Source: Sinorhizobium alkalisoli (GTDB lineage Bacteria > Pseudomonadota > Alphaproteobacteria > Rhizobiales > Rhizobiaceae). From it: a stretch of 64,000 nt of DNA. This document shows positions 11,086 to 63,941 of the stretch, in pieces. Position numbers and translations under genes: made by a program. The notes under the pieces are model-generated. The model was given only the letters and a program-made list of their open reading frames with translations, was not told the DNA's origin and did no database searches. How positions within the stretch are numbered: the stretch's first letter is position 1; each line of letters opens with the position of its first letter. The stretch is taken from the NCBI RefSeq assembly GCF_008932245.1, contig NZ_CP034910.1:1240001-1304000 (forward strand). Direction: 5' to 3'.

Positions 11086-11089
11086 GACC

Positions 11090-37375: not shown

Positions 37376-38638
37376 CTAAATCGACAACCTGACTAGTTTG
37401 GCGCGGCCTGCGATCAAGTCCGCAACGTGATTTATCCTAGCGGAATCGATGAAGAGGTCTGAGATGTCTTCCAATACTCTCGCTACGGCCTCAGCGGTGG
37501 AGTCGACCAAGTGTGTAATTCGGCGGCGCACCAAAGGTAAGCCAACTCCAGCTTCCTTCGCATAAGCCTGCCATCCATCCGCGTCCATCTCGGCAAGCGT
37601 GGCACGTTTCCCGATCCTCATGGCCATTTTCGGTGAAAGGTCTGGATAGGCGACCGTAGAAAGCAGATCGTACAGCGGAGCCAATCTCGGTCCATGATCG
37701 TCGTAGAGGATCGAGAAATTCTTGCCGTGGGCGTCGGCGTTTCCGACAACCAGGTTGAAGATTGCGGCGTCCAGCAGTTTCAACACATCTGTAGCGGGGC
37801 GCGCTGATACTCGCCGCAACAGCTCAAAACAGTCCTTGAATGTCGGCCCGCCTTCGCTGGCGTATTTCGTTTCAGGCGGCACGCCTAGCGCCTGGCAAAA
37901 ATCTTCCTGGTGTATGCGGCGCACGGCGCCGCTGGCATCGCGGACACGGTCATATCTTTCGACCAGAAGAAACGAGCGTCCTTCCGCAGACCGCGGTTCG
38001 ACGGGGGCGACGTCTAGGCCGATTGTGGCGCCGAGCTTCATAGCGAAGGCTTCGTTTTCGGTCGTCCCTGGGAAGCGCGCGATCGGCGGCTTAAGTATGT
38101 GCGTGGTCGCCTGGCCGGGAAGCGGAAGCGCGATCCGCCCATCAATCAGAACAACTGGCACTTTCGATTGGGCGCCGGCCAACGATAGTCTCAAGCCTTC
38201 CTCGCCGGCCAGTAGCGGCCGCGTAGGAAGTGCGTCTAGCACGCGGACGATTCCTGCGTCGTCCAGAGGCGTCGGCTGCTGGTCCGCAATCGGTCCGGTC
38301 TCTATGGGTTCCTGATTGTCCGGCAAGAGTTGAAGAGCGCCGGCAACATCGCCGCCCAAGCGATCGAGTAGCGCGAAATCATTTGCAGGTGAGACGCCCA
38401 GTGCTTGCGCTGCAACCAGGCGCTGGCGTTCTTCGGGCAGTAGGCCGCCAAAAAATGGTCTGCATTCACGACGGGAAAAACGCTCCGGGCGCTTCGGTAG
38501 GGAGGCTGAAAGCGGAAGTGTGCTTTCATCTTCGATCCAAGCTTCAGCGTAGGCGAAGCCGATATCGCCGTGCCGATCCTGGGTGAATTGCCCGACAATT
38601 CGACCATTCCACCAGACGTTGAGGACCCTTGCCGTCAT
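37376..38638 (-). CDS. hipA: HipA family serine/threonine kinase toxin
   Basis: 420 residues. It has the HipA N-terminal domain, the P-loop-like SLAGAQSKVPV, QEDFCQALG, the catalytic segment GNADAHGKNFSILY and the metal-binding LAPLYDLLST. HipA of E. coli phosphorylates glutamyl-tRNA synthetase and causes growth arrest; the target here may differ. The start overlaps the hipB stop as ATGA. It abuts mobile-element debris, fitting an acquired module. Confidence 0.92.
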   Translation of the reverse strand: MTARVLNVWWNGRIVGQFTQDRHGDIGFAYAEAWIEDESTLPLSASLPKRPERFSRRECRPFFGGLLPEERQRLVAAQALGVSPANDFALLDRLGGDVAGALQLLPDNQEPIETGPIADQQPTPLDDAGIVRVLDALPTRPLLAGEEGLRLSLAGAQSKVPVVLIDGRIALPLPGQATTHILKPPIARFPGTTENEAFAMKLGATIGLDVAPVEPRSAEGRSFLLVERYDRVRDASGAVRRIHQEDFCQALGVPPETKYASEGGPTFKDCFELLRRVSARPATDVLKLLDAAIFNLVVGNADAHGKNFSILYDDHGPRLAPLYDLLSTVAYPDLSPKMAMRIGKRATLAEMDADGWQAYAKEAGVGLPLVRRRITHLVDSTAEAVARVLEDISDLFIDSARINHVADLIAGRAKLVRLSI

Positions 38639-39912: not shown

Positions 39913-39926
39913 ATGATTCCCGTCAA
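39913..39926. promoter_or_regulatory. Weak FNR/FixK-like box upstream of the stress protein
   Basis: Read on the minus strand: TTGAC-GGGA-ATCAT, two mismatches to TTGAT-N4-ATCAA, about 55 bases before the usp start. Confidence 0.3.
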
Positions 39927-49021: not shown

Positions 49022-49035
49022 TTGATCAGCATCAA
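49022..49035. promoter_or_regulatory. FNR/FixK box (perfect)
   Basis: TTGAT-CAGC-ATCAA, an exact match to the FNR/FixK consensus, centred 102 bases before the start of the kinase/P-loop fusion gene. Confidence 0.7.
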
Positions 49036-49130
49036 GGTGGCGCTACCTGATGAAGCCCATCCTGACGCCAAGGCATTGCACAGGATTGTCTTTCCAGGCT
49101 GTCTCTCCAGGTGGAGAAAGGGAAAAAAGC

Positions 49131-50654
49131 ATGTTGACCGAGGACCAGTCGGAGGCGATCGCGTTTCTCGAAGAGCGTCGCGGATTGGAAGCGTGCGAGC
49201 GCATGGAAACGCATATTTCCTACATCTTCCTGGTCGGCAATCGCGCCTTCAAGATGAAGCGCGCGGTGAAGCTGCCCTATGTCGATTTCTCAACGCCGGG
49301 GTTGAGGCTCGAAGCCTGCGAAAAGGAGGTCGCGCTGAATGCAGCCACAGCGCCCGGCCTCTACATCGGCGTTCGCCGGGTCATGCGCGGCAAGGGCGGC
49401 AGGCTGCGCTTCGATAACGGGGATGAGCTTGTCGATGCCGTCGTCGAGATGGTTCGTTTCGACCAGGGCGCGCTGCTCGATCGCATGGCCATGGAAGGTC
49501 GGCTGACGGCCGAGCTGATGACCCGAGCGGCGCGGATGATTGCCCGCTTCCACCAGGCGGCGCCGGTCATCCACCAGGGCTCGGGCTCTGCCAACATTGC
49601 CGGTGTGCTGCGCATCAACGCCGCCGGCTTTCAGACGAGCCGGGTGTTCGGAGACGAGGAACTTCGTGAGTTTAACCGGGCGTTCGAAGAGAAGCTTGCG
49701 GTTCATGCGCCTCTGCTCGATGCGCGCGAAGCCGCCGGCAAGGTCAGGCGCTGTCACGGCGATCTGCACCTGCGCAATATTTGCCTGATCGATGGCGAGC
49801 CACGGCTCTTCGACTGCATCGAGTTCAACGATCAGATCGCCACGGTCGATACCCTCTACGACCTCGCCTTTCTGCTGATGGACCTCTGGCATCGTGGTTT
49901 CCCGGAACTCGCGAACCTTGTTGCGAACCGGTATCTCGACAAAACGAATGACGAAGACGGATTCGTGCTCTTGCCCTACCTGATGGCGATCCGCGCCGCC
50001 GTCAGGGCCCATGTCACCGCCACGCAGTTCGAGGAAAGCGAGGCGCGATCGAGCGAACTGGCGGCGGAGGCCCGGTCCTATTTCGCGCTCGCCCGTTCCT
50101 TGATCGAGACCGTGTCGGCGCGGCTGATCGTGATCGGCGGCTTCAGCGGCTCCGGCAAGACGACTGTCGCGGATATGCTGGCTGCCGAGGTTGGTGCACC
50201 GCCGGGAGCACGGGTCGTCGAAAGCGATCGCATCCGCAAAGCCATGCACGGCGTTTCGGCTGAGGAAAGACTCCCGTCGGCCGCCTATCTCCCGGAAGTC
50301 TCGGAGAGAGTTTATGGCGAGATGGCGGATCGGACCCTGACCCTCTTGCGCGCGGGCGCCCCGGTGGTTGCCAACGCCGTGTTCGACAGGGTACCGAACC
50401 GCGCCCGCATCGAAGCCGTGGCGCGGGAGGCCGGCGTGCCGTACACCGCCGTCTGGCTCGATGCGGATGCCGCGCTGCTTCGTCGACGCGTTGCATCACG
50501 CAGGGTCAGTCCCTCCGACGCGGATCTTGAGGTTCTGACGCGGCAGCTCGCCGCCGCCAGGAATGACGTTACCTGGCAAAAGGTGGATGCCGATCGGGAC
50601 GCGAGAGAAATCGTGCGCGACATTCTCGGCCTGCATACCGACGGGCAAGTCTGA
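49131..50654 (+). CDS. Fusion of aminoglycoside phosphotransferase-like kinase and P-loop (AAA/zeta-like) domain
   Basis: 507 residues. The N-terminal half has a kinase-like catalytic loop (RRCHGDLHLRNICL) and metal site (DCIEFNDQIATVDTLYDLAF). The C-terminal third is a P-loop nucleotide kinase (IVIGGFSGSGKTTVADML; ESDRIRKAMHGV). Such two-domain proteins occur in anaerobic or stress gene sets; the substrates are unknown. The start at 49131 follows GAGAAAGGGA. A perfect FixK-type box upstream suggests low-oxygen induction. Confidence 0.82.
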   Translation: MLTEDQSEAIAFLEERRGLEACERMETHISYIFLVGNRAFKMKRAVKLPYVDFSTPGLRLEACEKEVALNAATAPGLYIGVRRVMRGKGGRLRFDNGDELVDAVVEMVRFDQGALLDRMAMEGRLTAELMTRAARMIARFHQAAPVIHQGSGSANIAGVLRINAAGFQTSRVFGDEELREFNRAFEEKLAVHAPLLDAREAAGKVRRCHGDLHLRNICLIDGEPRLFDCIEFNDQIATVDTLYDLAFLLMDLWHRGFPELANLVANRYLDKTNDEDGFVLLPYLMAIRAAVRAHVTATQFEESEARSSELAAEARSYFALARSLIETVSARLIVIGGFSGSGKTTVADMLAAEVGAPPGARVVESDRIRKAMHGVSAEERLPSAAYLPEVSERVYGEMADRTLTLLRAGAPVVANAVFDRVPNRARIEAVAREAGVPYTAVWLDADAALLRRRVASRRVSPSDADLEVLTRQLAAARNDVTWQKVDADRDAREIVRDILGLHTDGQV

Positions 50655-50678
50655 GGTTATAGAAAGTCTCGGTTCCTG

Positions 50679-53396
50679 TCATCGAGACCTGGTATCACCG
50701 TCGGCCGAACGGGGTTTCAGGTCCAGCGACGCGACCTGCAGGCGAGGGTCCGAGGGATGCTGGCGGATCGAAAAGCCGAATTCGCGACACATGTGCTGCA
50801 TCCTGCTGTTTTCGCTCAGCATGATCCCCTCCATGCATTGGAGCCCATCGGCCGCGGCATAGTCGCGCAAATGCGAGAGCAGCGCCCAGCCGAGACCCTG
50901 TCCCTGCAGATCGGTCCGCACGAGCAGGCCGTACTCCGCCGTCTCGTGGTCGGGATCGGCATAGAGCCTTGCGATGCCGGCCAGATCTCCGCTTTCCTTC
51001 TCAAGCGCTATAAAGGCCATCTCGCGCTCGTAGTCGATCTGCGTCAGCCGCACCAGCATCTGGTGTGGAAAGCTTTTGCGCGGCGCCAGGAAGCGCAAGC
51101 GAATGTCGTCCGGCGCAGTCCTGGCGAAGAAGGTCGGATAGAGGGCCGCGTCGGCCGGCCTGATCGGGCGAATGCGGTAAGCTCTCGCCCCGAGCACGAT
51201 CTCTCGTTCCCAGCCGGCGGGATAGGGGCGGATCGCGAGATCGCGATTGGGGCCCGGCACGGCTGCCGCATTCGGGTCGATTTCGATGCGGGCGTCAAGC
51301 GCGATCGCACCTTCCTCGTCCGCCAGCAAGGGATTGATGTCCATCGAGACGATGGCGGGGAAATCGACGATCATTTGCGAGAGTGCGCAGAGCGCGCTCA
51401 AAATCGCAGTTCGATGCGCCGGCGGCTGATCGCGGAAGCCGGCGAGCAGGCGGCCGATGCGCGTGCGTTCGATGAGATCGTCGGCGAGCACATCATCGAG
51501 CGGCGGCAGGGCGACCGCCGTATCCGCGACGACTTCCACCGAGACGCCACCCGATCCGAACAATATGATGGGGCCGAAGACCGGGTCGCGGCTCGTTCCG
51601 AGGATCAGTTCCCAAGCGCGCCTGCGTTCGATCATCGGCTGCACAGCGAAACCCTCCAGGACGGCATTCGGGTCATGCGCCTTGAGCCGCGCCGCGATCG
51701 TTTCCGCCGCTTCTCGCGCAGCGGCGGCGGCCGTGATGTCGAGCACGACGCCGCCGACGTCGGACTTGTGGCTGACTGCCTTTGAAAGCAGCTTGACGAC
51801 GACCTTGGCCGAGTTGGCGAGAAGTGCGGCGGCGGCCTTTTCCGTCTCCTCGGGCGATACGGCGACGAGTGTCGTCGGCGTCGCGATGCCATAGGCGGCA
51901 ATGACAGCCTTTGCCTCCGGTTCGTTCAGCATCCGTCGCCCCTCCGACGCCACGCGCCGGAAGATGTCCATTACAGCCTTGCTGTCGTGGACGGCTGTGT
52001 CGCCGGCGCGGCTAGGGGGAACACGGAGCAGCGACTCCTGTGCCCGCGACCAGTTTGCCAGGTAGGAGGCGGCCAGCGCGACGTCGGCCGGTGTGTCATA
52101 GCTTGCGAGCTTCGCCTCCTGCAGGGCTTGGCGGCCGTCTCTGGCGGTGCGGCTGCCGAGCCAGCAGGACAGGACGGGCTTGCCGGCGATCGTCCCGGAC
52201 TGCGACAGCGAAGCGACGGCGCGCGCCGCCTCTAGGGGCGAAGCGAGCCCGGTCGGGCAGTTCATGACGATGAGGATGTCGGTCGCCGGGTCCTGAGCCA
52301 CGATTTCTGTCGCTGCCCGGTAACGCTCGGGCGATGCATCGCCGATAATGTCCACCGGATTAGCCCGCGACCAATTGGCGGGCAGAACCTGGTCCAGGGC
52401 CTGGATGGTCTCGGCCGACAGCTCCGCCAGTTCGCAGCCGAAATCCACCAAGCGGTCGACGGCAAGCACGCCGGCTCCGCCGCCATTGGTGACGATCGAG
52501 GCACGGGTGCATTTCAGCGGCGCGAAGCGACCGATCGTTTCCGTTGCATTGAACAGTTCACCAAGGCTCTCGATCCTGAGCACGCCGGCGCGGCGCAAGG
52601 CGGCATCAACCACCCGGTCGGCGCCGGATAGCGCGCCGGTGTGCGTGGCTGCGGCCTTCGCAGCCTCTGCGTGGCGCCCGGATTTTATAGCGACGACCGG
52701 CTTCAATCGGGCAGCCGCCCGGGCTGCCGAAAGGAACTTGCGCGGGTTCGGCACGGCTTCGAGATACATCACGATCGCCCGGGTCTTCGGGTCGCCCGCC
52801 AATAGATCAAGGCAATCGGCGGCGTCGACGTCGGCCATGTCACCGAGCGACACGATCTGCGAAAAGCCGACTTCGTTGTCGGCCGCCCAATCGATGAGTG
52901 AGGTCGCGATGGCGCCAGACTGCGAGAGCAGCGCAATGCCGCCCGCCTGCGGCTGGAGATGCACGAAACTCGCATTGAGCTTCGCGGCAGGCACGATGAG
53001 GCCCACCGTGTTGGGGCCGATGATGCGGAAGAGATGGGGTTTTGCGGCATCAAGCATCGCCTGCCGCAAGCCATTCTCCTCAGAAAGACCGGCCGTGATC
53101 ACCACCGCGGCTCGGGTACCCCGCTCGCCGAGGTCACGGATGAGACCGGGTATCGTTTGCGGCGGCGTGACGATGACCGCAAGATCGGGAACCCCGGGGA
53201 TGTCGGCAACACGTGCATAGCAGCGAAGCCCGGCGACCGCGCGGTATTTCGGGTTCACCGGCCAGATCTCTCCCCCGAATCCCATCGACAGCACATTGTC
53301 GATGACGACGCGACCGAGCGAACCTTGACGGCTGGAGGCGCCGATCACCGCAAGCGACTTCGGGTCGATGGCATAATGAAGGTTTCGAATGGTCAT
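50679..53396 (-). CDS. Pat-type protein acyltransferase: acyl-CoA synthetase-like domains plus GNAT
   Basis: 905 residues. CoA-binding and ligase domains of the ADP-forming acyl-CoA synthetase family come first (SLAVIGASSRQGSLGRVV; ATHTGALSGADRVVD with the histidine). Next is an ATP-grasp part (LNEPEAKAVIAAYGIATPTT), and last a GNAT domain (IRPIRPADAALYPTFFART; RTDLQGQGLGWALLSHL). This order equals Pat/YfiQ, which acetylates lysines of enzymes such as acetyl-CoA synthetase. It lies 61 bases after the hybrid FixL gene on the same strand, so it may share that transcript. Confidence 0.88.
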   Translation of the reverse strand: MTIRNLHYAIDPKSLAVIGASSRQGSLGRVVIDNVLSMGFGGEIWPVNPKYRAVAGLRCYARVADIPGVPDLAVIVTPPQTIPGLIRDLGERGTRAAVVITAGLSEENGLRQAMLDAAKPHLFRIIGPNTVGLIVPAAKLNASFVHLQPQAGGIALLSQSGAIATSLIDWAADNEVGFSQIVSLGDMADVDAADCLDLLAGDPKTRAIVMYLEAVPNPRKFLSAARAAARLKPVVAIKSGRHAEAAKAAATHTGALSGADRVVDAALRRAGVLRIESLGELFNATETIGRFAPLKCTRASIVTNGGGAGVLAVDRLVDFGCELAELSAETIQALDQVLPANWSRANPVDIIGDASPERYRAATEIVAQDPATDILIVMNCPTGLASPLEAARAVASLSQSGTIAGKPVLSCWLGSRTARDGRQALQEAKLASYDTPADVALAASYLANWSRAQESLLRVPPSRAGDTAVHDSKAVMDIFRRVASEGRRMLNEPEAKAVIAAYGIATPTTLVAVSPEETEKAAAALLANSAKVVVKLLSKAVSHKSDVGGVVLDITAAAAAREAAETIAARLKAHDPNAVLEGFAVQPMIERRRAWELILGTSRDPVFGPIILFGSGGVSVEVVADTAVALPPLDDVLADDLIERTRIGRLLAGFRDQPPAHRTAILSALCALSQMIVDFPAIVSMDINPLLADEEGAIALDARIEIDPNAAAVPGPNRDLAIRPYPAGWEREIVLGARAYRIRPIRPADAALYPTFFARTAPDDIRLRFLAPRKSFPHQMLVRLTQIDYEREMAFIALEKESGDLAGIARLYADPDHETAEYGLLVRTDLQGQGLGWALLSHLRDYAAADGLQCMEGIMLSENSRMQHMCREFGFSIRQHPSDPRLQVASLDLKPRSADGDTRSR

Positions 53397-53457
53397 GCCG
53401 CGCTCTCCGGTTTTTCGCCACGCGCATTCCCGGCGGCGGGTTCGCGGGCAAGCGCCC

Positions 53458-55350
53458 TCAATCGAGCAGATTACGGAGGCGTCGGGCGAGTTCCTTCGCC
53501 GTATAAGGTTTTCGCAGCCAGCTTCCGGGATCCGACAATTCCTTGCCGATTACGCTCGGCTCGGCATAACCGGAGGTGAAAAGCATCTTTGCGTCGGGCC
53601 GCAGCGCGCGCACATGCTGCGCCAGTTCACCGCCATTCATGCCCCCCGGCATGATCACATCCGTGAACACGAGCGCGACTTCCGGGTGCTCGGAGAGCAG
53701 TTCCAGCGCTTGGCCTGCGGCCTCGGCTTCAATGACCCTGTAGCCGGCATCCTCCAGTCGAGCGACGACGACGCGCCGAACCCGCGGATCGTCTTCCACC
53801 ACCAGGATCGTCTCGTGGCCCCTCGCAATTGGCTCGGGAGCAATTTCCCCGCCTCCCTTCGGCTCGACCATGTCCTCCTCGCCCCGCGCCGCGGGAAGGA
53901 AGATGCGTACGCTCGTACCCTGGCCGCGCTCGCTGTAAAGCTGGATATGGCCGCCGGATTGCTTGACGAAGCCATAGACCATGCTCAGCCCCAGTCCCGT
54001 GCCGGCACCCGTGCCCTTGGTTGTGAAGAAGGGTTCGAAAGCGTGGCGCTTGACCTCCTCGCTCATGCCGGTACCGGTGTCGGTCACGGTGATGAGGACG
54101 TAGCGGCCCATCCGGACTTCGGGATACATGAGCACATAGTCTCGATCGAGAACCGTCGTCGAGATTTCGACGGTCAACCGGCCACCGGCGGACATGGCGT
54201 CGCGAGCGTTCAGCGCCAGGTTCAGCAGCGTGTTCTGAAGCTGAGAGACGTCGACGAGCGCCAGATTGCCGGCGCCAGTCACCATGGTGCGGAGCTCGAT
54301 CGTTTCGCCCAATGTTCTCGTCAGGAGGTTGGAGAAGTTCGAAACCAGCTCGCCGACGTCGACGAGCTTCGGATTGAGCGGCTGGCGCCGGCCGAAGGCA
54401 AGCAATTGTCCCGTCAATTTCGCGCCGCTGTCCGCCGCCGCCTGGGCTTCGCTCAAGAGCGACAGGAGCTTCTCGTCCTCAAGCCGGGCCTCGATCATTT
54501 CCAGATTGCCGGTGATCACAGTCAGAAGATTGTTGAAATCATGAGCGAGACCGCCTGTCAGTTGCCCGACGGCCTCCATCTTCTGCGCCTGACGAAGCTC
54601 TTCCTCAATGCGCTGGCGACTCGTGAGATCGCGAATGAAGCCTGTGAAAATCCGCTTGCCCCCGGAGACCGCCTCGCCAACGGAAAGCTCCATCGGAAAG
54701 GTGGTGCCGTCCTTGCGCTGCCCGGTGACGACGCGGCCGATGCCGATGATCCGCCTTTCACCCGTATGCAGGTAATTGGCGATATAGCCGTCATGCGCAT
54801 CCCGGTCCGGCTGCGGCATCAGCATGCTGACATTGCGGCCAAGAACCGAATGTTCCTTGTATCCGAATAGCCGCTCGGCCGCGGCGCTAAAGGAGTTGAT
54901 CCTGCCCTTTTCGTCGATCACGACCATTGCCTCGGGCACCGTATCAAGGATTGATCGCAAATGCGCCTCACGGGCCGCAAGGTCCGCCTGCGTCTGTCTC
55001 AGATTGGTGATGTCGCTATCGGTCTGGACGATGGCGCCGCGACCGCCGTCTTCCGAGGCGAGAAGGATCCAGCGGCTCGCGACGAAGACGGTGGTGCCGT
55101 CCTTGTGCCTCTGCTCCAGCTCGCCTGCCCAAGCCCCGTGTGCGTTGAGATGGCTGCGAATTTCCTCGATCGATTTCGGGAAAGTTGTCGCCAGCAGGTC
55201 GTGAACGGCCTTGCCCCGGGCTTCGCCGCGCGACCAGCCGTAGAGTTCTTCACAGCCCTTGCTCCAGTGGGTGATCCTGCCGTCGGCTCCGTGGACGATG
55301 ACATTCGCCCCGTCGAGGGCATCCACGATGTGGCTTACGCGCTTTTCCAT
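53458..55350 (-). CDS. Hybrid FixL-type oxygen-sensing histidine kinase
   Basis: 630 residues: PAS (about 1-120), heme-PAS (about 128-240), HisKA/HATPase (about 255-490), receiver (about 515-630). The second PAS closely follows Fix[24 protein letters not shown] with the proximal heme histidine (His186), and [20 protein letters not shown] with the distal-side arginine (Arg206). The phosphorylated histidine is in [11 protein letters not shown] (His270). The receiver aspartate is in FTDVIMPGG. The C-terminal receiver makes it like hFixL of Rhizobium etli. Its gene lies 15 bases after the FixK-type gene. Confidence 0.9.
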
Positions 55351-55365
55351 ACTGTCAGACCGTCT

Positions 55366-56094
55366 TTATGCGGTGGCATATCGCGCACCGGTTGGCAGCA
55401 ACCAGTTTTCACCATCGTCGCCATCGGCTAGCGAGCGAAGGGCATCCATTTTCAGGACCATAATCGATCGCCGTCCGGTGGCTGTGATGATACCGCTGTT
55501 CGTCAATTTTGTTATGGTGCGCGAAACGGTTTCGATCGTCATACCCAGATAATCGGCCATGTCGAGGCGCGTCATCGGAATATCGACGATGCGCGTGCAA
55601 TTCCCGAACTCGTCACGAGACATCATGAGCAGGAAATTGGCGACTTTTTCGTCGGCGCTCCTGCGCGACAGCAGCACGGTCTGGTCCTGGGCCGCGGTCA
55701 TTTCGTCACACAATCTGGAGAAGAGCTGATCCCTCAGTTGCGGCTGACGCCTGATCTCTTCTTCGAAGCGACGGCGCGAGAGGCGGCGAAGCGCGACTGG
55801 AGTGATCGCCTCGACGGTATAGAGATATCGCTCCTTGATCGACACGCCGAGCAGATCGCCGGGGCGCAGGAAGCCGACGATGATACGGCGGCCGTCGCTC
55901 AGCAGCCGCACCGCCCGAAGCATTCCGTCGGTGATCTGGAACAGATGCGCGGCATCGTCGCCTTCCCAAAAGACGGCGCTGCCTGCGTCGAACCTTTCCA
56001 GCGGTTGCCGGTCGAACAGGGACGACAGGCTCGGCTGTGAAAGCGTAACGGGTGCTTCGCGAGCACTCTGGACGGCAACGACTTGAAGGCTCAT
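55366..56094 (-). CDS. Crp/Fnr regulator of the FixK type
   Basis: 242 residues. Cyclic-nucleotide-binding-like beta barrel (about 30-140) and C-terminal helix-turn-helix RLDMADYLGMTIETVSRTITKL, which keeps the glutamate and SR that read TTGAT half-sites. There is no N-terminal cysteine cluster, so it is not an oxygen-sensing FNR; oxygen control would come from FixL. The start at 56094 has AGGAGG. Four TTGAT-type boxes with at most one mismatch in the window are its plausible targets. Confidence 0.88.
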   Translation of the reverse strand: MSLQVVAVQSAREAPVTLSQPSLSSLFDRQPLERFDAGSAVFWEGDDAAHLFQITDGMLRAVRLLSDGRRIIVGFLRPGDLLGVSIKERYLYTVEAITPVALRRLSRRRFEEEIRRQPQLRDQLFSRLCDEMTAAQDQTVLLSRRSADEKVANFLLMMSRDEFGNCTRIVDIPMTRLDMADYLGMTIETVSRTITKLTNSGIITATGRRSIMVLKMDALRSLADGDDGENWLLPTGARYATA

Positions 56095-56180
56095 GACATC
56101 CTCCTGTGGATTTGATGGGAGGAGTTTGCGCAGTGGCCGGTGACCGTGCGACGACTGGCGTGTTACACTTGGATCGATAT

Positions 56181-56196
56181 TGTAACAATTTGTAAC
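56181..56196 (-). promoter_or_regulatory. Direct repeat upstream of the FixK-type gene (K-box candidate)
   Basis: On the minus strand GTTACA-AATT-GTTACA. It lies about 90 bases before the FixK-type start and 36 bases before the divergent regulator. Response regulators of the OmpR class bind such direct repeats; I recall a K-box of this form for FxkR in Rhizobium etli. Confidence 0.65.
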
Positions 56197-56231
56197 TGCG
56201 CGATTCCGTGAACAGGAGCGGTACGAGGAGC

Positions 56232-56972
56232 ATGGCCAATTCACAGAAGGCGCCGGAGCATATTCTCGTCGTCGACGACGATCCGAGAATTCGGCAGATG
56301 CTCGCGCGCTACTTCGAGGACGAAGGCTACCGCGTCAGCCTGGCCGGTGACGGCAGGGAGATGCGCGATAGCCTGGAAACCCAGGCAATCGACATCATCC
56401 TGCTCGATCTCGTCCTGCCGGGTGAGGACGGGCTGGCTTTGGCGCGTGACATAAGGGCACGCTCGGACATTCCGATCATCATGCTGACCGGGCGCAACGA
56501 CGTGGTCGACCGGATCGTCGGCCTGGAGATCGGCGCCGACGACTACATCGCGAAACCGTTTCACCTTCGCGAAGTGCTGGCAAGACTGAGAAGTGCGCTC
56601 AGGCGCCGGCAACCGCCGGCGGCGTCGGTCCGCAACGAAACGCAATCGGAAATCTACAGTTTCGAGGGATGGCATCTCGACGTGGGGCGTAGGCAGTTGC
56701 TGTCCGACGAGGGCAAAGAAATTCTTCTGACCACGGGCGAATTCGATATGCTCTGCGTGCTGGTGAAGCATGCCGGCCGCGTTCTCCAGCGCGAGCGGCT
56801 GATGGATCTCACCCGGGGCCGGAACCTGGAGGCCTTCGACCGGACCATCGATGCGCAGATCGCAAGACTGCGCCGCAAGATCGAACTGGATCCCAGCAAC
56901 CCGGCGCTCATCAAGTCGGTCAGGGGCGTCGGCTACGTCTTCAGCGCAAGGATCAGCAGGCAAGACGCGTAA
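56232..56972 (+). CDS. OmpR/PhoB-type response regulator, FxkR-like
   Basis: 246 residues. Receiver domain with acidic pocket VVDDDPR, phosphoacceptor in LLDLVLPGEDG (Asp59) and KPF; C-terminal winged helix (LTTGEFDMLCVLVKHAGRVLQRERLMDLTRGR ... IKSVRGVGYVF). It is divergent from the FixK-type gene and next to the hybrid FixL, as in the hFixL-FxkR-FixKf cascade described in R. etli. It would relay the FixL signal to the fixK promoter. Confidence 0.85.
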   Translation: MANSQKAPEHILVVDDDPRIRQMLARYFEDEGYRVSLAGDGREMRDSLETQAIDIILLDLVLPGEDGLALARDIRARSDIPIIMLTGRNDVVDRIVGLEIGADDYIAKPFHLREVLARLRSALRRRQPPAASVRNETQSEIYSFEGWHLDVGRRQLLSDEGKEILLTTGEFDMLCVLVKHAGRVLQRERLMDLTRGRNLEAFDRTIDAQIARLRRKIELDPSNPALIKSVRGVGYVFSARISRQDA

Positions 56973-57001
56973 GCGTTTGCGCGGCGGTTTCCAACAGGGC
57001 T

Positions 57002-57445
57002 TCACTGTACGGGAATAAGCATGCCACGACCCGGCCGCAGACATTCCCCGCGGGGGTCCGGCCAGCTGGCGGGATCCGTCCTGGCAATGCGAATGAAACG
57101 GCACCGCCGATTGCGTGCCACCGTCCTCAAATATTCGAGAAGCGCGTCGGAAACCCCCGGCGTGTCTCCGGCACTGATGACGAGAAAGACGGGCACGTCG
57201 AGAAGCTGCCCGTACAAATGGTCATGCATCGCGCGGGCAATGCCGAGGCCCGGGATGTGGCCGCGGGGATTCTCCACCGTTACTATCTCCGCTGTATAAA
57301 GCGAAATGTGCTGCCGGGCGAACGCCGCCCCGCAGAATTCGCGCCATTCGGTCAGATCGACTTCGTAGCCGCTGGCCTCTACGAGGAGATAGGCGCGATC
57401 GACCTGATGGCGCTGAATTGGACCGACCGAATAGGCCCTGGCCAT
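57002..57445 (-). CDS. Hypothetical protein in the FixK-box region
   Basis: 147 residues, no recognised domain or signal peptide. There are clusters of basic residues near the C-terminus (RTVARNRRCRFIRIARTD). The ribosome site GGAGGAG is strong, so the gene is probably real. It is divergent from the ornithine carbamoyltransferase-like gene; two FixK-like boxes lie between them, at 67 and 103 bases from this start. Confidence 0.65.
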   Translation of the reverse strand: MARAYSVGPIQRHQVDRAYLLVEASGYEVDLTEWREFCGAAFARQHISLYTAEIVTVENPRGHIPGLGIARAMHDHLYGQLLDVPVFLVISAGDTPGVSDALLEYLRTVARNRRCRFIRIARTDPASWPDPRGECLRPGRGMLIPVQ

Positions 57446-57505
57446 TCTCGCTCCTCCGCATTTTTCCGCTGGGCATCAAGGTCCGGCCTGGATGTCGGGA
57501 CGTCA

Positions 57506-57519
57506 TTGATGTTCGTCAA
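57506..57519. promoter_or_regulatory. FNR/FixK-like box
   Basis: TTGAT-GTTC-GTCAA, one mismatch to consensus, between divergent genes. Confidence 0.6.
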
Positions 57520-57541
57520 ACTGCGGCACCGCCCGACGAGT

Positions 57542-57555
57542 TTGACGGGCATCAA
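57542..57555. promoter_or_regulatory. FNR/FixK-like box
   Basis: TTGAC-GGGC-ATCAA, one mismatch. Centre 36 bp from the previous box and about 61 bases before the carbamoyltransferase start. Confidence 0.6.
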
Positions 57556-57609
57556 GGTGAGTCAGTGTGAACTGCCGTTCAATGCAGGTTCGCCGAAAGG
57601 GAGCGTGCC

Positions 57610-58605
57610 ATGCCCATCGATCTTCGCGGCCGCAGCGTGTTGACGCTTCAGGAGTTCACGCCGGACGAGCTTCGATTTCTGCTGCGGCTTGCTGCCGATC
57701 TCAAGACGGAGAAGAGAAGCGGCAGAGAGATCCCGCGGCTGAGCCGCAGGAACATCGCCCTTATCTTCGAAAAGGAGTCGACGCGTACCCGCACCGGCTT
57801 CGAAGTGGCTGCCCATGACCAGGGCGCTCATGTCACCTATTGGGGTCCTTCCGGCAGCCACCTGGGCCGCAGGGAATCGATCAGGGATACGGCCCGCGTG
57901 CTCGGAAGACTCTACGACGCGATCGAATATCGCGGTCGCTCGCAAGACGCGGTCGACGAACTGGCGGCGCATGCGGGTGTGCCGGTCTATAACGGCCTGA
58001 CTGACGAATCACACCCGACGCATGCGCTCGGCGATTTCCTGACCATGCAGGAGTTCAGTGAAAAGCCGCTCTCGCAAGTGGTGGTGGCTTACCTCGGCGA
58101 TGGTCGCGGCAATGTCGCGCGATCGCTGGCGATCGGTGCCGCCAAGCTCGGAGTGGACCTGCGCATCGTCTCGCCGCCGATCTTCTGGCCCGCCAAATCC
58201 TTCATAGTGCAGGTGACGTCGGAGGCGCGAGCGCATGGTGGCCGGTTCACGGTGCTGGAGCACGTCGGGGCGGGCGTTCTGGGCGCCGACTTCATCTACA
58301 CCGCGCCGTGGCTCGGTGAAGAGGAGACGGGCTGGGCCGAGCGTATCAGGCTGCTCGCGCCATTCGGCGTCAGGGCGAACGTAATGGAGGCTACCGAGAA
58401 TCCCCACACGAAGTTCATGCACTGTTTACCCGCCTGCCACGACCGCAATAGCGAAGTGGGGGCGCGGATTGCCAAGCAATTCGGCATTGAGTGCATGGAG
58501 GTGTCGGACGCCGTCTTCCAATCGAAAGCCTCGATCGTTTTCGACCAGGCGGAAAACCGTATGCATACGATCAAGTCGATCCTCATCGCAACGATCGCGG
58601 GCTGA
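57610..58605 (+). CDS. Ornithine carbamoyltransferase family protein, catabolic (ArcB) type but with altered ornithine site
   Basis: 331 residues. Carbamoyl-phosphate loop ESTRTRTGFE, HCLP loop FMHCLPACHD, and overall resemblance to catabolic ArcB (DTARVLGRLYDAIEYRGRSQ; QAENRMHTIKSILIATIAG). HPTQ is changed to HPTH, and the SMG loop that holds ornithine appears missing (YTAPWLGEEETGWAERI). Catabolic enzymes convert citrulline to carbamoyl phosphate for ATP under low oxygen. Here another amine acceptor is possible. Two FixK-like boxes precede it. No arcA or arcC is nearby. Confidence 0.82.
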   Translation: MPIDLRGRSVLTLQEFTPDELRFLLRLAADLKTEKRSGREIPRLSRRNIALIFEKESTRTRTGFEVAAHDQGAHVTYWGPSGSHLGRRESIRDTARVLGRLYDAIEYRGRSQDAVDELAAHAGVPVYNGLTDESHPTHALGDFLTMQEFSEKPLSQVVVAYLGDGRGNVARSLAIGAAKLGVDLRIVSPPIFWPAKSFIVQVTSEARAHGGRFTVLEHVGAGVLGADFIYTAPWLGEEETGWAERIRLLAPFGVRANVMEATENPHTKFMHCLPACHDRNSEVGARIAKQFGIECMEVSDAVFQSKASIVFDQAENRMHTIKSILIATIAG

Positions 58606-58683
58606 ATCCCTGCGTCGGCGCTGCGCTTCTGCAAGTTCCAATATCTCGCACTCAAAGGTCGCTGTAGGTCGATCGCACAAGAT

Positions 58684-58697
58684 TTGATGCGTATCAA
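58684..58697. promoter_or_regulatory. FNR/FixK box (perfect)
   Basis: TTGAT-GCGT-ATCAA, exact consensus, centred 70 bases before the MBL RNase gene. Confidence 0.72.
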
Positions 58698-58759
58698 GTC
58701 GTCTGCCGCGCAGGCGTGCATTCTTTCGAAAAGGCCGCCTCGCGAAAGGATTCGTATCA

Positions 58760-60352
58760 ATGCCCGCTGAACCGATCATCCGCTTTCATGGCGCTGCCGG
58801 AACCGTCACGGGCTCCTGCCAGCTCTTGGAATTCGGGCCCGCAAGAATTCTCGTCGACTGCGGGCTCTTCCAGGGGGCGAAGACGGAAAAGGAGCTGAAC
58901 TATCGCTCGTTCCCCTTCGATCCCTCAAAAATCGATGCCGTCATCCTGACGCATGCGCATATCGATCATTCCGGCCTGCTCCCGAAGCTCGTCAAGCTCG
59001 GCTATGACGGCCCGATCTTCGCAACGCCCGCGACGCGGGACCTGTGTACGGTCATGCTGCCCGATTCCGCACATATCCAGGAAAGTGAGGTCGACCAGCG
59101 TAATCGCCGCAGCCTGCGCCGGGGGCGCGATGCGGTGACGCCCATCTACGCCGCGCACGACGCCGCGATCGCCATCACCCTGTTCCGTCCAGTGCCGCTC
59201 GGGGCGTGGCAGGAGGCCGCGGCGGGAATCCGGTTCCGCTTCTGGAATGCCGGGCATCTGCTTGGCTCGGCTTCCGTAGAAATGGAGGTCGGCGCGGCGC
59301 CTTCGCCGTTGCGGCTGCTCTTTTCAGGAGACATCGGTCCGCGTCATAAGCTGCTTCAGTTCGACGCCACGGCGCCAAGCGGTTGGCACTATGTCGTCTG
59401 CGAGAGCACCTATGGTGACGTCGCGCGTGAGCAGGCGTCGGATGCGACGAGGCGAAACATTCTGCGCGCCGAGGTCATGGCGGCGACCCATCCCAATGGT
59501 GCGCTGATCATCCCGTCCTTTGCCGTGGAGCGCACACAGGAGCTTCTGACCGATCTCGTCCATCTCATGGACACAGGCGCGATCACGAGATGCCCGATCA
59601 TCATCGATTCACCGCTCGCGACTCAGGCAAGCGAAATCTTCCGGAGGCATGCGCGCGAGCTGGAGAACGGCGACGCGCTTGTCCGGGCCATCGAGGCCCG
59701 GAACGTGCGTTTTACCGAAACGGTCGAACAGTCGAAGGCGCTCGACCTCATGCGGGGCTTTCACATCGTCATCGCCGCAAGCGGCATGTGCGAGGCCGGC
59801 CGCATACGCCATAGGCTGAAGAACTGGCTGTGGCGGGACGAGGGCACCGTGCTGTTGGTCGGCTACCAGGCGGCCGGGACGCTCGGCCGTTTTCTCGAAG
59901 ACGGAGCCTCCGTGGTTCGCATCCAGGGAGACGACATTCGGGTGCGGGCCCGCATCCGAACGCTCGACATCTACAGCGGCCATGCCGACGGGGTGGAACT
60001 CGCCGACTGGGTGCGGGCCCGGCAACCCATTCGCGGCGGCGTCTTTCTGGTCCACGGCGAGGAGGATGCGCTCGAAGCGCTCCGGCAGCGTCTATCCAAG
60101 TTCCTGCCGGAAGTGCGGCTGATCCGGCCTCGTCTCGATGCGGCGTTCCGCCTGGGTGCAGAAGGGTTGGTTGAAATATCTGACGCCACTCCTCCCCGCA
60201 TCGATCCGTATCGGGCGGGTCACACAGATTGGCACAACGACTTCCAATCGCTTGTCCTCGATCTTCAGGACGAACTGGCGAAGGCCGCCGACGACAAGGC
60301 GCGCGGCGTGGTGCTGCGCAGATTGCGGCGGGCGCTGATGGAGGAGGCATAA
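58760..60352 (+). CDS. Metallo-beta-lactamase / beta-CASP RNase-like protein
   Basis: 530 residues. Metal site THAHIDHSG and further ligand regions (WNAGHLLGSASVEME; LLFSGDIG), the beta-CASP domain (IIPSFAVERTQELL; ASGMCEAGRI) and the terminal RMMBL segment with IYSGHADGVEL. It resembles YSH1/TTHA0252-type RNA-processing nucleases. AAAGGATT precedes the start. A perfect FixK box upstream suggests it is made at low oxygen. Convergent with the membrane-fusion gene. Confidence 0.88.
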   Translation: MPAEPIIRFHGAAGTVTGSCQLLEFGPARILVDCGLFQGAKTEKELNYRSFPFDPSKIDAVILTHAHIDHSGLLPKLVKLGYDGPIFATPATRDLCTVMLPDSAHIQESEVDQRNRRSLRRGRDAVTPIYAAHDAAIAITLFRPVPLGAWQEAAAGIRFRFWNAGHLLGSASVEMEVGAAPSPLRLLFSGDIGPRHKLLQFDATAPSGWHYVVCESTYGDVAREQASDATRRNILRAEVMAATHPNGALIIPSFAVERTQELLTDLVHLMDTGAITRCPIIIDSPLATQASEIFRRHARELENGDALVRAIEARNVRFTETVEQSKALDLMRGFHIVIAASGMCEAGRIRHRLKNWLWRDEGTVLLVGYQAAGTLGRFLEDGASVVRIQGDDIRVRARIRTLDIYSGHADGVELADWVRARQPIRGGVFLVHGEEDALEALRQRLSKFLPEVRLIRPRLDAAFRLGAEGLVEISDATPPRIDPYRAGHTDWHNDFQSLVLDLQDELAKAADDKARGVVLRRLRRALMEEA

Positions 60353-60374: not shown

Positions 60375-61574
60375 TCAGCGCGCGACGACGGAGACGCCGG
60401 CCTCGATGCGGTCGCTTGGATAGAGGATGACCCTCTCGCCCTGCTGCAGCCCCTCGCGAATTTCCACCGAAAGGCTGTTTCTGTGGCCGATTTCGACAGG
60501 CCGCAGTTCAGCCCGCTGTCCCTCTACGACGAACACGGCCCAGTCTTCTCCTCGCCGAAACAGGGCTCCCAGCGGCAGCTGGAGCACGTTGCCTTCGAAA
60601 AGTATAACCTGGACGTCGACGCGATAGCCGTGACCGAGCGGACTCCAGCTTTCCGGCGGGCCGGCAAAGTCGAGTATCACATCCACGCGCTGTTCTTCGA
60701 TGCCGAGCGCCGATATCTCGGTCTCGGCAAAGGGCTCGATACGCCGCACGGTCGCCTGTAGATCCGGACCGCCCCATCCGGTGACGACGGCGTGTTGTCC
60801 GGGCTTGATCTTGACTGCGTCCTCCGAAAGCATGTTGACGACGATTTCCAGATCCCTGGGATCACCGATCTCTATCAAGGGCGTACCGGCATCGATGACG
60901 CCTTCGCTGCGGCGCATGACCCGCAGCACGACGCCGTCGACCGGGGCCGTCAGCGGGACGCATTCGCAGGCTTCGCTGCGGCTCCTGATCTCCTGACGGG
61001 AGAGGAGGCGAGACTGGGCCTGCTGAAGTTCGTGGCGCCTGACGTTGATTGCCGCTTCGGCCGTCTCGAGATTGGCTTGCGCAACACTGAACGCGCGCTC
61101 GGCGTCATCCAGCGCCCGCTGCGAGATGGTGTTGCGCTGGATCAACTGACGGGCGCGGGCGCGGTCGCTCTCCGCAAAGGTCAGGTCGGCCTTGGCCTTG
61201 TTGAGTTCGGCCTCAGCGAGATTATAGGCTGCTCGGGCCGCTTCGACGGCCGCCTGATGCTCCGCTTCCGTCCGCGCATCGAGGAAAGCGGGCGCGGCCG
61301 GCTCAATCTGCGCCAATTGCGTCTTCCCGGCTTCGACGACATCGCCCGCGTCCACCGTGATCCGGTGCAACTGGCCGCGCAGCGGGGCGTGCAGTGTGTA
61401 GACGTCGCGTACTCGCGTTTCTCCTTCCTCGTCTATCGTCACGCGCAGCATACCGGTTGCGGCAGTCGCGAGGTCAACCGGGATCGGCTGCGGCCTCAAT
61501 GCGTAGGCGATGGCGGCTGCCAGCACGCCCAGCAAGCTACCCCAGATCACCAACCTGCGTCTTGCCACGCTCAA
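60375..61574 (-). CDS. Membrane-fusion (HlyD/DevB type) efflux subunit
   Basis: 399 residues. An N-terminal membrane anchor (RLVIWGSLLGVLAAAIAYAL) is followed by a split biotinyl-lipoyl fold (APLRGQLHRITVDAGDVVEAGK ... PLTAPVDGVVLRVMRRSEGVI) around a long coiled-coil hairpin (about 100-195). It bridges an inner-membrane ABC permease to the outer membrane. It likely starts with TTG after GAGGGAGTAG, 3 bases after the permease stop. Confidence 0.88.
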   Translation of the reverse strand: MSVARRRLVIWGSLLGVLAAAIAYALRPQPIPVDLATAATGMLRVTIDEEGETRVRDVYTLHAPLRGQLHRITVDAGDVVEAGKTQLAQIEPAAPAFLDARTEAEHQAAVEAARAAYNLAEAELNKAKADLTFAESDRARARQLIQRNTISQRALDDAERAFSVAQANLETAEAAINVRRHELQQAQSRLLSRQEIRSRSEACECVPLTAPVDGVVLRVMRRSEGVIDAGTPLIEIGDPRDLEIVVNMLSEDAVKIKPGQHAVVTGWGGPDLQATVRRIEPFAETEISALGIEEQRVDVILDFAGPPESWSPLGHGYRVDVQVILFEGNVLQLPLGALFRRGEDWAVFVVEGQRAELRPVEIGHRNSLSVEIREGLQQGERVILYPSDRIEAGVSVVAR

Positions 61575-61577
61575 AGA

Positions 61578-63941
61578 CTACTCCCTCGTTTTCAGCACCG
61601 CTATCAGGTCCAGGCGGTCGAGCCGGCGGCGCACGATAGCGGCGCAGGTCAGCGCGGCCGCGAGCGCGATCAGAGCGGCCTTGCCATAGGTGGCGTCACG
61701 AAGCACGAGCGGAACGCGATAAAGTTCCGTCTCGAAGGCGCTCGTCATGTACCATGCCAGACTGAAGCCGATGACACCGCCGAGCGGGATGGATATCCAG
61801 GTCAGGATGCCGACCTCGCCAAGAAGAATGTAGGAAATCTCCCAGCGGCTGAAGCCAAGAACGCGGAGCGTCGCAAGCTCTCGCGCCCGCTCGGAAAGTG
61901 CGATGCGGATCGAATTATAGGTGACGCCGACGGAGAGCGTCAGCGAAAAGGCGACGAAGAAGCCGATGAAGATGAAGATGGTTTCGCCCATGGTCTTGTA
62001 GAAGGTGTCGATGGCGGCCTGCCGGAAGAGAACCGCCGCGACATTGGGGATATCCTTCAGCCGCGTCAGCAGGGCCGCGCGGTCTGGCGCATCGACACGG
62101 ATGTGCAGCCCGCTGACGACCCGACCGTCACCGGCCAGCCGGTTGAGTGCGGCCATGTCCATATACACGGGCGTGCCGATATAGGTATCGAAAATCTGCA
62201 CCACCGGCAGGTTCACGCGCCGCTGATGCCCTTGCAGCATTTCAACGGCGACGGTGTCGCCGGTTTCGACCTCGAGGAGTTCGGCAAGCTTGCGCGAGAA
62301 AATGAGCCCATCGGGCGGGATCTCGATGCGGCCGCGCTCGTTGTCGAAAACCGGGCTCAGGATGGCGCCCTGCGGCACGCCGATAATGCCTTGTCGTTCG
62401 ATGAGGTGCCCGTGAGCGATGCGCGTCGAAACATACCGGTAAGGCTCTGCAGCCAGCACTCCGGGCAGGTCCTCGAAGCCCCTGACCGTGTCGATCGGCT
62501 GCAGGTCGCTAAAGGCTACGGATGCGTCCTGATGCTGCCCGCGTTCGAAGACGGTTTCGACGAGGGAGTCGATGGCGTCCACCCATTGCAGCGCCATGAT
62601 CAACACGGAGATGGACATGGCGAGGCCGAGGCTTGCCAGGAATGCCCGCACCGGCCAGCGGATGATGCGCCGCAGGATCATCCGCGACGGTTCGTCCAAG
62701 GCACCCGCCAGCGCAGTTCGCGAGGCCCAGCTGCGCCGATAGATCGGCGGGGAGGGTGGCAGCATTGCCTCTGCCGGCGGCAGGCGCACGGCGCGACGCA
62801 CAGCGAAAAGGCTGCCTGCCAGCGCGGCGGCAAGGCTGATCGCACCGGCGATCACGAAACCGTCGGGGCCTGGCCGATAGAGAAGGAAGGGAAAGCGGTA
62901 GAACTGCGTATAGAGCTCGGTATTCCAATGGCCGAGCCAGGCGCCGAGCATGGAGCCGATCAGGATGCCGAGCGCTCCGATGGCGAGGACCATCTTGGCG
63001 AAATGCCAGCCAATCGCCAGATTGCCGTAGCCGAAGGCCTTCAGGAGACCGATTTCCCGGCGTTCGGTCTCGATCAGACGTGCCATCACCATGTTCGTCA
63101 GGAAGGCAGCGACCGCAAGGAAGATGGTCGGCATGATCTTCGACATGTTCTTCTGTTGAGCGATCTCGCTCTGGAGGAACCAGTTCGAAGTCTGGTCGGC
63201 ACGGTCGTAAGCTCCGGTGCCGCCGAAGGGAGCCAACAGGTTGTCGAGACGCCGGATGACGTCCCTGGGGTCCGCGCCCGGCAGAAGGCTCACGGTCACG
63301 CTGTTGAACGCAGATTGGAGGTCGAAGGCGGCCGCCAGCGCATCTCTCCCCATCCATAAAACGCCGAAACGCTCGTCGTCCGGCATGAGCCCTCCCGGGG
63401 CGATGGCGTAGACGAATTCCGGGCTCAGCGCAGTCCCGACCACCTGGAGCCTGCGTTTGTTTCCTCTGAGGATCGCGTCGAAAGTGTCGCCGGGCTTTAA
63501 TCCATGCGCATCGGCGAAGGGCTCGCTGACGACCACCTCGTCCGACCGGTTCGGGTCGACCAGACGTCCGGAGCGGATCACCAGCGCGTTCAGGAGCTGC
63601 GGCCCGCGTTCGGGGAGCGAAATCAGTTGGGCGACGACCGGCTCGGAATAGCCGGGCATGTCGAGGATGGCGCCATCGACGATACGCGTTTCGGCCAGCC
63701 GCACGCCTGGCATTTCGGCGATATCGCGTCCGAGATACTCGGGAGCGCGTTTCGCCCGGGCGAAGACGTCGGCGAAGCGGGTCCGCTCGTAATAGGCGGT
63801 GGTGGTCTCTTCGAGCGCTTCAATGGTGGTCAGCGCCATGATGAGCAACGCCGTGCCTGAAGCGATCACCAGAGCGATCGCCACGACCTGAGCCTTTAAC
63901 TGCCAAAGGCCACGGAGGAGTTTTCGGTCGAGACTGCTCAT
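61578..63941 (-). CDS. FtsX-type ABC transporter permease
   Basis: 787 residues. Two MacB-like periplasmic regions and two FtsX domains are visible (LTNMVMARLIETERREIGLLKAFGYGNLAIG; YNSIRIALSERARELATLRVLGFSRWEISYILL). Hydrophobic segments lie near the N-terminus, residues 275-390, 430-450 and at the C-terminus. It belongs to the DevC/LolE-type exporters of lipids or peptides. Start overlaps the preceding frame as ATGA, so its ATPase is probably the next gene upstream. Confidence 0.88.
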   Translation of the reverse strand: MSSLDRKLLRGLWQLKAQVVAIALVIASGTALLIMALTTIEALEETTTAYYERTRFADVFARAKRAPEYLGRDIAEMPGVRLAETRIVDGAILDMPGYSEPVVAQLISLPERGPQLLNALVIRSGRLVDPNRSDEVVVSEPFADAHGLKPGDTFDAILRGNKRRLQVVGTALSPEFVYAIAPGGLMPDDERFGVLWMGRDALAAAFDLQSAFNSVTVSLLPGADPRDVIRRLDNLLAPFGGTGAYDRADQTSNWFLQSEIAQQKNMSKIMPTIFLAVAAFLTNMVMARLIETERREIGLLKAFGYGNLAIGWHFAKMVLAIGALGILIGSMLGAWLGHWNTELYTQFYRFPFLLYRPGPDGFVIAGAISLAAALAGSLFAVRRAVRLPPAEAMLPPSPPIYRRSWASRTALAGALDEPSRMILRRIIRWPVRAFLASLGLAMSISVLIMALQWVDAIDSLVETVFERGQHQDASVAFSDLQPIDTVRGFEDLPGVLAAEPYRYVSTRIAHGHLIERQGIIGVPQGAILSPVFDNERGRIEIPPDGLIFSRKLAELLEVETGDTVAVEMLQGHQRRVNLPVVQIFDTYIGTPVYMDMAALNRLAGDGRVVSGLHIRVDAPDRAALLTRLKDIPNVAAVLFRQAAIDTFYKTMGETIFIFIGFFVAFSLTLSVGVTYNSIRIALSERARELATLRVLGFSRWEISYILLGEVGILTWISIPLGGVIGFSLAWYMTSAFETELYRVPLVLRDATYGKAALIALAAALTCAAIVRRRLDRLDLIAVLKTRE

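Follow-up and report, generated by a model that had tools for sequence, protein, structure and literature searches.

Does a set of putative oxygen-responsive regulators control the genes that surround it? This question is raised by a 64,000-nucleotide stretch of the Sinorhizobium alkalisoli genome (the window; C2:1240001-1304000), in which a hybrid FixL sensor kinase (hFixL), an FxkR-like response regulator and a FixK-type regulator are encoded among genes preceded by FixK/FNR-type boxes (anaeroboxes). The genome comprises three contigs with a total of 6.13 Mb. C2 is a chromid-sized replicon of 1.98 Mb, and nifH is located on the third contig, C3, so that this sinorhizobium has nitrogenase genes. 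We consider it likely that the window forms the left part of a low-oxygen survival island, conserved among sinorhizobia, in which the hFixL-FxkR-FixK cascade controls the boxed genes. Below, G, C and L numbers denote genomes, contigs and loci.

Clustering of anaeroboxes

Boxes were searched for with the strict pattern TTGAT-N4-ATCAA, allowing up to two mismatches, and with the degenerate consensus TTGAY-N4-RTCAA. A first-pass annotation of this DNA had placed four boxes in the window, and the pattern scan agreed: the sites at 49022 and 58684 were perfect, and those at 57506 and 57542 carried one mismatch each. In total, the strict pattern gave 28 window matches at up to two mismatches versus 14.7 expected. 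Another one-mismatch match, at 51334, sits within a coding gene and was not counted as a site. A weaker box, proposed at 39913 for a universal stress protein (USP) gene, did not hold up, as two-mismatch matches are common by chance and its right half is changed in S. sojae. The degenerate consensus occurred exactly four times in the window, at the four positions named and always as an exact match; 200 Markov sequences contained 0.165 such sites on average, and none of them had four in 10.6 kb.

The boxes were correctly assigned to the kinase/P-loop fusion gene, the carbamoyltransferase-like gene with its divergent neighbor (encoding a 147-aa protein) and the ribonuclease (RNase) gene, lying 60–105 bp ahead of the probable starts. 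The distance from box center to start was 102.5 bp for the kinase fusion, 61.5 bp for the carbamoyltransferase-like gene, 69.5 bp for the RNase gene and 67.5 bp for the divergent gene. The kinase fusion start (ATG 49131) was judged by eye from the leader; the longest open reading frame (ORF) begins at 49050.

A genome scan, suggested in the same annotation, revealed 15 perfect TTGAT-N4-ATCAA sites (reversed-pattern control, 0) and 46 TTGAY-N4-RTCAA sites (control, 5). Nine of the 46 fell within C2:1289022-1313886, approximately 25 kb from the first box to 10 kb beyond the window. None of 20,000 uniform placements reached nine sites in 24.9 kb (the largest value was five), this stretch having been picked post hoc, after the sites were known. 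The perfect sites alone provided a much weaker signal, with 3 of 15 in 17.6 kb at the island, matched by 221 of 20,000 placements.

Elsewhere in the genome, the degenerate consensus preceded ccoN and also lay between hemN and the gene for an FnrN-like protein, which makes it very likely that the motif acts as a working anaerobox in S. alkalisoli. The surroundings were inspected for 31 of the 46 sites; at 5 of 15 short inspected loci the box fell within a predicted gene, so some matches are no promoters. Three identical TTGACAGCTGTCAA sites within 1.3 kb (C2:452665-453943) are probably a repeat and not FixK boxes.

Oxygen-sensing regulators and the FxkR operator

The three regulators are of the types originally proposed. 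The hybrid FixL combines a FixL-type haem PAS domain, a kinase and a C-terminal receiver, and its second PAS domain aligned to the FixL structures 8js5 and 1dp6. It keeps the histidine of HD(S/G)YI and the arginine of IGIGR, which we take to be residues of the haem pocket. For the FixK-type regulator, FixK2 was the nearest solved protein. Its start (ATG 56094) was chosen by eye and puts the FxkR operator, or K-box, outside the gene; the longest ORF reaches 56244 (292 aa). Translated from ATG 56094, the protein is devoid of N-terminal Fe-S cysteines, its only cysteines being those in RLCDEM and GNCTRI. The FxkR-like protein showed 70% identity (71% by tblastn) to a regulator encoded on pRL9 of R. 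leguminosarum (L021:9160-9885). The latter is annotated merely as a response regulator, and its position beside a Crp/Fnr gene fits fxkR9 of PMC7888657.

A perfect K-box, missing from the first-pass annotation, sits between the divergent fxkR and fixK-hfixL genes and corresponds to the FxkR operator consensus GTTACA-N4-GTTACA (PMC4999443); S. meliloti orthologues of the cascade are given in the same paper. A K-box with at most two mismatches was present 35–39 bp upstream of the fxkR start at every one of the 15 sinorhizobial loci of this layout that were tested. Of the 22 fxkR-type starts examined, 20 had a match within two mismatches. Two-mismatch cases were equalled by 1–4 of 200 shuffles. 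L160 was left out of this test because its fxkR match is partial, and the rows of G155, G157 and G160 are near-identical. Both starts without a K-box (L166 in G175 and L172 in G171) belong to paralogous fxkR/fixK/hfixL-like clusters in which FxkR is 54–55% identical; no 147-aa gene was found at these two clusters. Of 33 genus genomes, 14 had a perfect K-box, and each of these belonged to the 15 with an RNase orthologue. On pSymA of S. meliloti 1021 (L022 12511-13241), the fxkR homologue matched as two overlapping pieces; the gene may be disrupted in this sequence, though the K-box and fixK-hfixL are present.

Conservation of gene order and promoters

Synteny was analyzed around 14 further loci, over up to 20 kb each, where fxkR occurs together with both the 147-aa gene and the carbamoyltransferase-like gene (L158 and L159 represent one locus, fxkR is partial in L160, and the carbamoyltransferase-like gene is fragmented in L173). 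The RNase gene was present in 13 of the 14 (split in two in some) and the ligase/GNAT gene in 11; 10 loci had a USP gene and 6 the kinase fusion. S. sojae retained the full gene order of the window. Clustering and synteny agree with the claim that regulators and boxed genes stand side by side.

Promoter boxes were conserved as well. Counting own-genome loci, a box lay within 250 bp upstream of the kinase fusion at 20 of 23 loci, of the RNase gene at 15 of 15, of the carbamoyltransferase-like gene at 13 of 14 and of the 147-aa gene at 7 of 8. The control genes arcB (0 of 5) and argF (0 of 11) had none at this distance. The kinase fusion loci came from 21 genomes, two of them counted twice; L062 (contig edge), L072 and L079 (partial) and hits without a locus were set aside. 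The RNase loci came from 13 genomes, leaving out partial pieces and hits of 38–39% identity or weaker (L093-L096, L099-L109). The sole unboxed locus in the carbamoyltransferase-like count was the ArcB-type L122.

An island extending beyond the window

To the right of the window, genes were found for a USP, Hsp20, phosphoenolpyruvate (PEP) synthase (ppsA), GroEL, a second USP, a CBS-BON protein, PfkB, a P-type ATPase-hemerythrin protein and peroxiredoxin. Five further boxes lie in this stretch (positions 2509, 2595, 6874, 6917 and 9874 of L016, C2:1304000-1323999), and paired boxes separate the Hsp20 gene from ppsA, and groEL from a USP gene. For Hsp20 and CBS-BON, the coding sequence probably falls short of the longest frame, and boxes would then lie upstream of both genes. 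USPs, a small Hsp, PfkB and a CBS/BON protein, the combination expected of a set of the lxa or DosR type, thus occur together directly right of the window. With Hsp20, USPs, ppsA, groEL, CBS-BON and pfkB at its flank, the island resembles these sets closely enough to make the likeness to an anaerobic dormancy set, suspected at first pass, a fair one. In microoxic Bradyrhizobium, USPs, CBS proteins, PEP synthase and a PfkB-type kinase are raised in the bll4644-blr4659 block (PMC6515984).

In the model that we propose, the haem PAS domain of hFixL would lose O2 at low oxygen, and the kinase would drive FxkR. FxkR would bind the single K-box and turn on fixK-hfixL, perhaps together with the acyl-CoA ligase/GNAT gene. 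FixK would then activate the boxed genes, with FnrN assisting it or taking over as oxygen drops further; they are the genes for the kinase fusion, the GNAT-like protein, the carbamoyltransferase-like protein and the beta-CASP RNase inside the window, and those for Hsp20, PEP synthase, GroEL, USP and CBS-BON/PfkB beyond it. Such a gene set may protect RNA and protein and reroute carbon during growth arrest. The activation of the boxed genes by FixK (or FnrN) and their survival role are what we infer from sequence. The model is compact and testable, and describes rhizobial survival without oxygen through a self-contained circuit.

The carbamoyltransferase-like protein

Compared with solved ornithine carbamoyltransferases (OTCs) and sinorhizobial ArcB, the window protein has lost the loop D-x-W-x-SMG (DVWVSMG replaced by APWL--G), which binds ornithine in OTCs. 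It also has HPTH for HPTQ and a histidine for the glutamine of GSQ, the latter change being shared with two ArcB rows (G171 and G175). Together with two near relatives, it keeps the carbamoyl-phosphate motif STRTR, the arginine of YRG and HCLP. In a sister clade of 12 rows from 10 other genomes, the loop is lost and STRTR and the YRG arginine are missing in 12 of 12; loop loss is common to all 15 rows of the two clades. In these 10 genomes without the carbamoyl-phosphate motif, the gene is still boxed, forms an open frame and is under purifying selection.

In the phylogenetic tree, the window type formed one clade (support 100/98) and the twelve rows another (100/100), the two being sisters (100/100). 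Both were placed next to the two ArcB rows, whose loop and STRTR are intact, with a support of only 84/58 for this grouping. These ArcB rows adjoin arcA-like genes just under the family cut-off, accompanied by arcC in G175 and an arcC fragment in G171. G157:C1, G160:C67 and G175:C28:14434 were added to the tree outside the 14-locus promoter count; the first two are boxed just upstream, and the ArcB-type G175 row is unboxed. The tree suggests that the ornithine loop was lost first and the carbamoyl-phosphate site second, in one branch. The window protein shared 50–52% identity with five ArcB proteins encoded in arcABC operons and 64–66% with the two beside arcA-like genes.

The ratio of nonsynonymous to synonymous substitution rates (dN/dS) in 15 chosen pairs, one of which includes the ArcB row L122, was 0.06–0.24 (mostly 0.14–0.24), except for one value of 0.40 with a dS of 0.02. 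Four ArcB pairs gave 0.03–0.06. By this measure, the gene appears to be kept under purifying selection but less constrained than arcB.

Neither arcA (best score 24.9 bits versus a cut-off of 489.1) nor arcC (27.2 versus 358.25) was found in the S. alkalisoli genome. A role in arginine fermentation was rejected on the basis of the lost loop, the changed HPTQ and the missing arcA and arcC. The targets had been described as stress, RNA and energy-saving functions; a stress, RNA and metabolism set stands, and the energy-saving part fails because the ornithine loop is lost and no arcA or arcC turned up in the genome.

The protein probably is a pseudoenzyme that descends from a catabolic OTC and most likely serves a non-catalytic role. 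For the fuller history, in which a catabolic OTC was recruited into the sinorhizobial FxkR-FixK locus, lost its loop and then its carbamoyl-phosphate site, and was kept as an oxygen-controlled binding or regulatory pseudoenzyme, we see about even chances. If true, this would be a clean natural case of an enzyme turning into a pseudoenzyme, with stepwise loss of the active site behind oxygen-type promoters and motif-intact relatives still in the same genus. In searches of the open-licence literature, we found no paper pairing FxkR with a carbamoyltransferase and no pairing of OTC with FixK beyond PMC7268258; for pseudoenzyme combined with OTC, the enzyme name was absent among the matches listed.

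Other genes of the window

The features of the locus are listed in Table 1. The ligase/GNAT gene is possibly co-transcribed with fixK-hfixL, given the same strand and short gaps. A box ahead of the ligase gene in relatives was dropped as a candidate, because those boxes precede the neighboring USP gene instead. The 147-aa protein has a GNAT-like predicted fold and may be a GNAT; a single-sequence structure model was uninformative, with a predicted local distance difference test (pLDDT) score of 40, and its Pfam matches were weak only. Of 151 genomes sampled across the family, 8 encode this protein, some at only 28–37% identity. In a pattern scan of the genome collection, its wider alignment provided no usable pattern and a closer alignment gave 6 loci. 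A HipA-type toxin gene lies left of the region (37376-38638). HipA, P-type ATPase and USP genes also lie near a related kinase fusion on a Leisingera plasmid.

Table 1. Genes and predicted regulatory sites of the proposed low-oxygen locus (window positions).
Feature	Position	Strand	Basis or remark
FixK/FNR-type anaerobox TTGATCAGCATCAA	49022..49035	.	Pattern match; box at most 250 bp upstream in 20/23 orthologous loci
APH-like kinase/AAA_33 P-loop fusion, 507 aa	49131..50654	+	Pfam APH and AAA_33
ADP-forming acyl-CoA ligase/GNAT fusion, without own box	50679..53396	-	Pfam
Hybrid FixL: PAS, haem PAS, histidine kinase, receiver	53458..55350	-	Pfam, structure alignment
FixK-type CRP/FNR regulator, 242 aa	55366..56094	-	Best solved relative FixK2 4i2o
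FxkR operator (K-box) GTTACA-N4-GTTACA	56181..56196	-	Sole perfect copy in 6.13 Mb
FxkR orthologue, OmpR-type response regulator	56232..56972	+	70% identity to R. leguminosarum pRL9 regulator
147-aa protein, no known family	57002..57445	-	Conserved fxkR neighbor in sinorhizobia; box upstream in 7/8 loci
Anaerobox TTGATGTTCGTCAA	57506..57519	.	Placed for divergent 147-aa gene
Anaerobox TTGACGGGCATCAA	57542..57555	.	Placed for carbamoyltransferase-like gene
Ornithine-carbamoyltransferase-like protein without ornithine loop	57610..58605	+	Pfam, alignments, tree
Anaerobox TTGATGCGTATCAA	58684..58697	.	Box upstream in 15/15 orthologous RNase loci
MBL/beta-CASP/RMMBL ribonuclease, TTHA0252-like	58760..60352	+	Pfam
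HlyD adaptor and FtsX-type permease (efflux)	60375..63941	-	Syntenic flank, without own box; membership uncertain

Alternative explanations

Several observations weigh against control of the boxed genes by the local cascade. An FnrN-like protein could act on the same boxes. An exact box is missing at three of the 23 kinase fusion loci (L053, L055 and L064), some RNase orthologues are fragmentary (G170 and G171), and the ligase/GNAT gene has no box of its own. G155, G157 and G160 carry the perfect K-box at a second fixK, and their same-layout locus has a two-mismatch version. No box was found in 25-kb stretches around the kinase fusion on Azospirillum and Leisingera plasmids, and the link between fusion and box is therefore rhizobial. 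The carbamoyltransferase-like gene is dispensable, since no copy was found at the S. meliloti 1021 locus and the G173 copy is fragmented. Finally, related genomes are non-independent, so that Fisher values overstate the evidence. The boxes might alternatively be read mainly by the FnrN-like protein or another FixK encoded elsewhere, with local regulators that serve other targets and owe their position to history. The genome encodes an FnrL/FnrN-type protein on C1, with paired boxes beside hemN; box sequence cannot separate FixK from FnrN; FnrN dominates in R. leguminosarum nodules (PMC7888657); and six genus genomes without a perfect K-box (G154, G161, G165, G177, G179 and G180) nevertheless have a boxed kinase fusion. 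Such a division of labor seems unlikely to us, because the genomes with a perfect K-box all fall among those with the RNase gene and because synteny keeps the regulators next to the boxed genes. Even if the cascade does control the island, the gene set might serve nitrogen-fixing nodule symbiosis and not the persistence of free-living cells. Consistent with this are the nifH gene on C3 and a microaerobically induced, FnrN-dependent small Hsp that matters in the pea symbiosis of R. leguminosarum (PMC11784457). Two points speak against it: the nif-bearing contig is not C2, which carries the island, and related gene sets are found both on a plasmid of Agrobacterium and in an Ensifer strain that came from plastic debris. 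We regard a symbiotic purpose as somewhat doubtful and keep to a survival island under local control.

For the carbamoyltransferase-like protein, the retained STRTR, YRG arginine and HCLP of the window protein and its two near relatives would also fit an active enzyme with a new acceptor, one that binds carbamoyl-phosphate and not ornithine. We think this rather improbable: the same three proteins have HPTH for HPTQ and the histidine at GSQ (although the histidine is also found in the G171 and G175 ArcB rows), and the sister clade has lost STRTR and the arginine altogether. Decay into a pseudogene would explain the dN/dS values above those of arcB, the missing gene in S. meliloti 1021 and the fragmented one in G173. 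It is nonetheless very unlikely, as the frames are open, each of the 13 loci of this type in the count of 14 has a box upstream, dN/dS is well below 1, and the loop loss is common to the 15 rows of two clades. A retained pseudoenzyme remains our preferred account.

Comparison with known systems

The closest counterpart is the cascade of R. leguminosarum 3841 and R. etli, which has the FxkR orthologue and a divergent fxkR/fixK pair with a K-box (cluster 2, pRL9; PMC7888657, PMC4999443). In R. leguminosarum, the hFixL-FxkR-FixK pathway works at 1% O2 (PMC7888657). Cluster 3 of this species likewise groups fxkR, fixK and hfixL but is described without a K-box. The pRL9 stretch resembles the island too: its 41.5 kb include 10 boxes along with USPs, groEL and the kinase fusion. 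The outputs treated in the R. leguminosarum paper are fixNOQP and fnrN, whereas in S. alkalisoli the regulators, the K-box and boxed stress genes form one block.

In S. meliloti, a 120-kb region of pSymA is reported to contain the densest FixK-like motifs of the genome and local Fnr/Crp genes including SMa1141, and the responsible regulator is suggested to lie perhaps inside this region (PMC5596199). The S. alkalisoli locus is similar in having local regulators beside many boxed genes, and pSymA of S. meliloti 1021 shows the order RNase, 147-aa gene, fxkR, K-box, fixK, hfixL, ligase, USP. SMa1141 is probably the fixK of this order. The two differ in that the carbamoyltransferase-like gene was not found at the S. 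meliloti locus and the published region also includes nap, nir, nos, nor and fix genes. At the corresponding position in S. meliloti 1021 (L022 ~10200-11840), other open frames lie between the same boxes. The published motif-dense region makes the general idea of a local regulon less new. The local regulon is a known type of arrangement, and the apparent pseudoenzyme is the new part. In contrast to ArcB, which it resembles in sequence, the window protein combines a lost ornithine loop and altered HPTQ with a boxed promoter in a genome where arcA and arcC were not found.

Outside the rhizobia, the lxa locus of Burkholderia cenocepacia is a comparable island of low-oxygen genes; it encodes six USPs, an alpha-crystallin, a phosphofructokinase and a BON protein, and a FixK/FNR-type regulator is suspected (PMC6127331, PMC9733578, PMC3759415). 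However, the lxa regulator BCAM0049 lies outside the locus numbers BCAM0275-0323, and the likeness is drawn at the level of gene types. The DosR regulon of Mycobacterium tuberculosis also includes USPs, alpha-crystallin and PfkB (PMC5309233, PMC6127331), and Rv2004c, Rv1997 and Rv2626c are further members (PMC5309233). It differs from the island in its sensor and regulator families. The DosR regulon is scattered across the genome, and we take Rv2004c, Rv1997 and Rv2626c to be a kinase/P-loop fusion, a P-type ATPase and a CBS protein, respectively. The S. alkalisoli island would connect the FixK system of rhizobia with the survival sets lxa and DosR.

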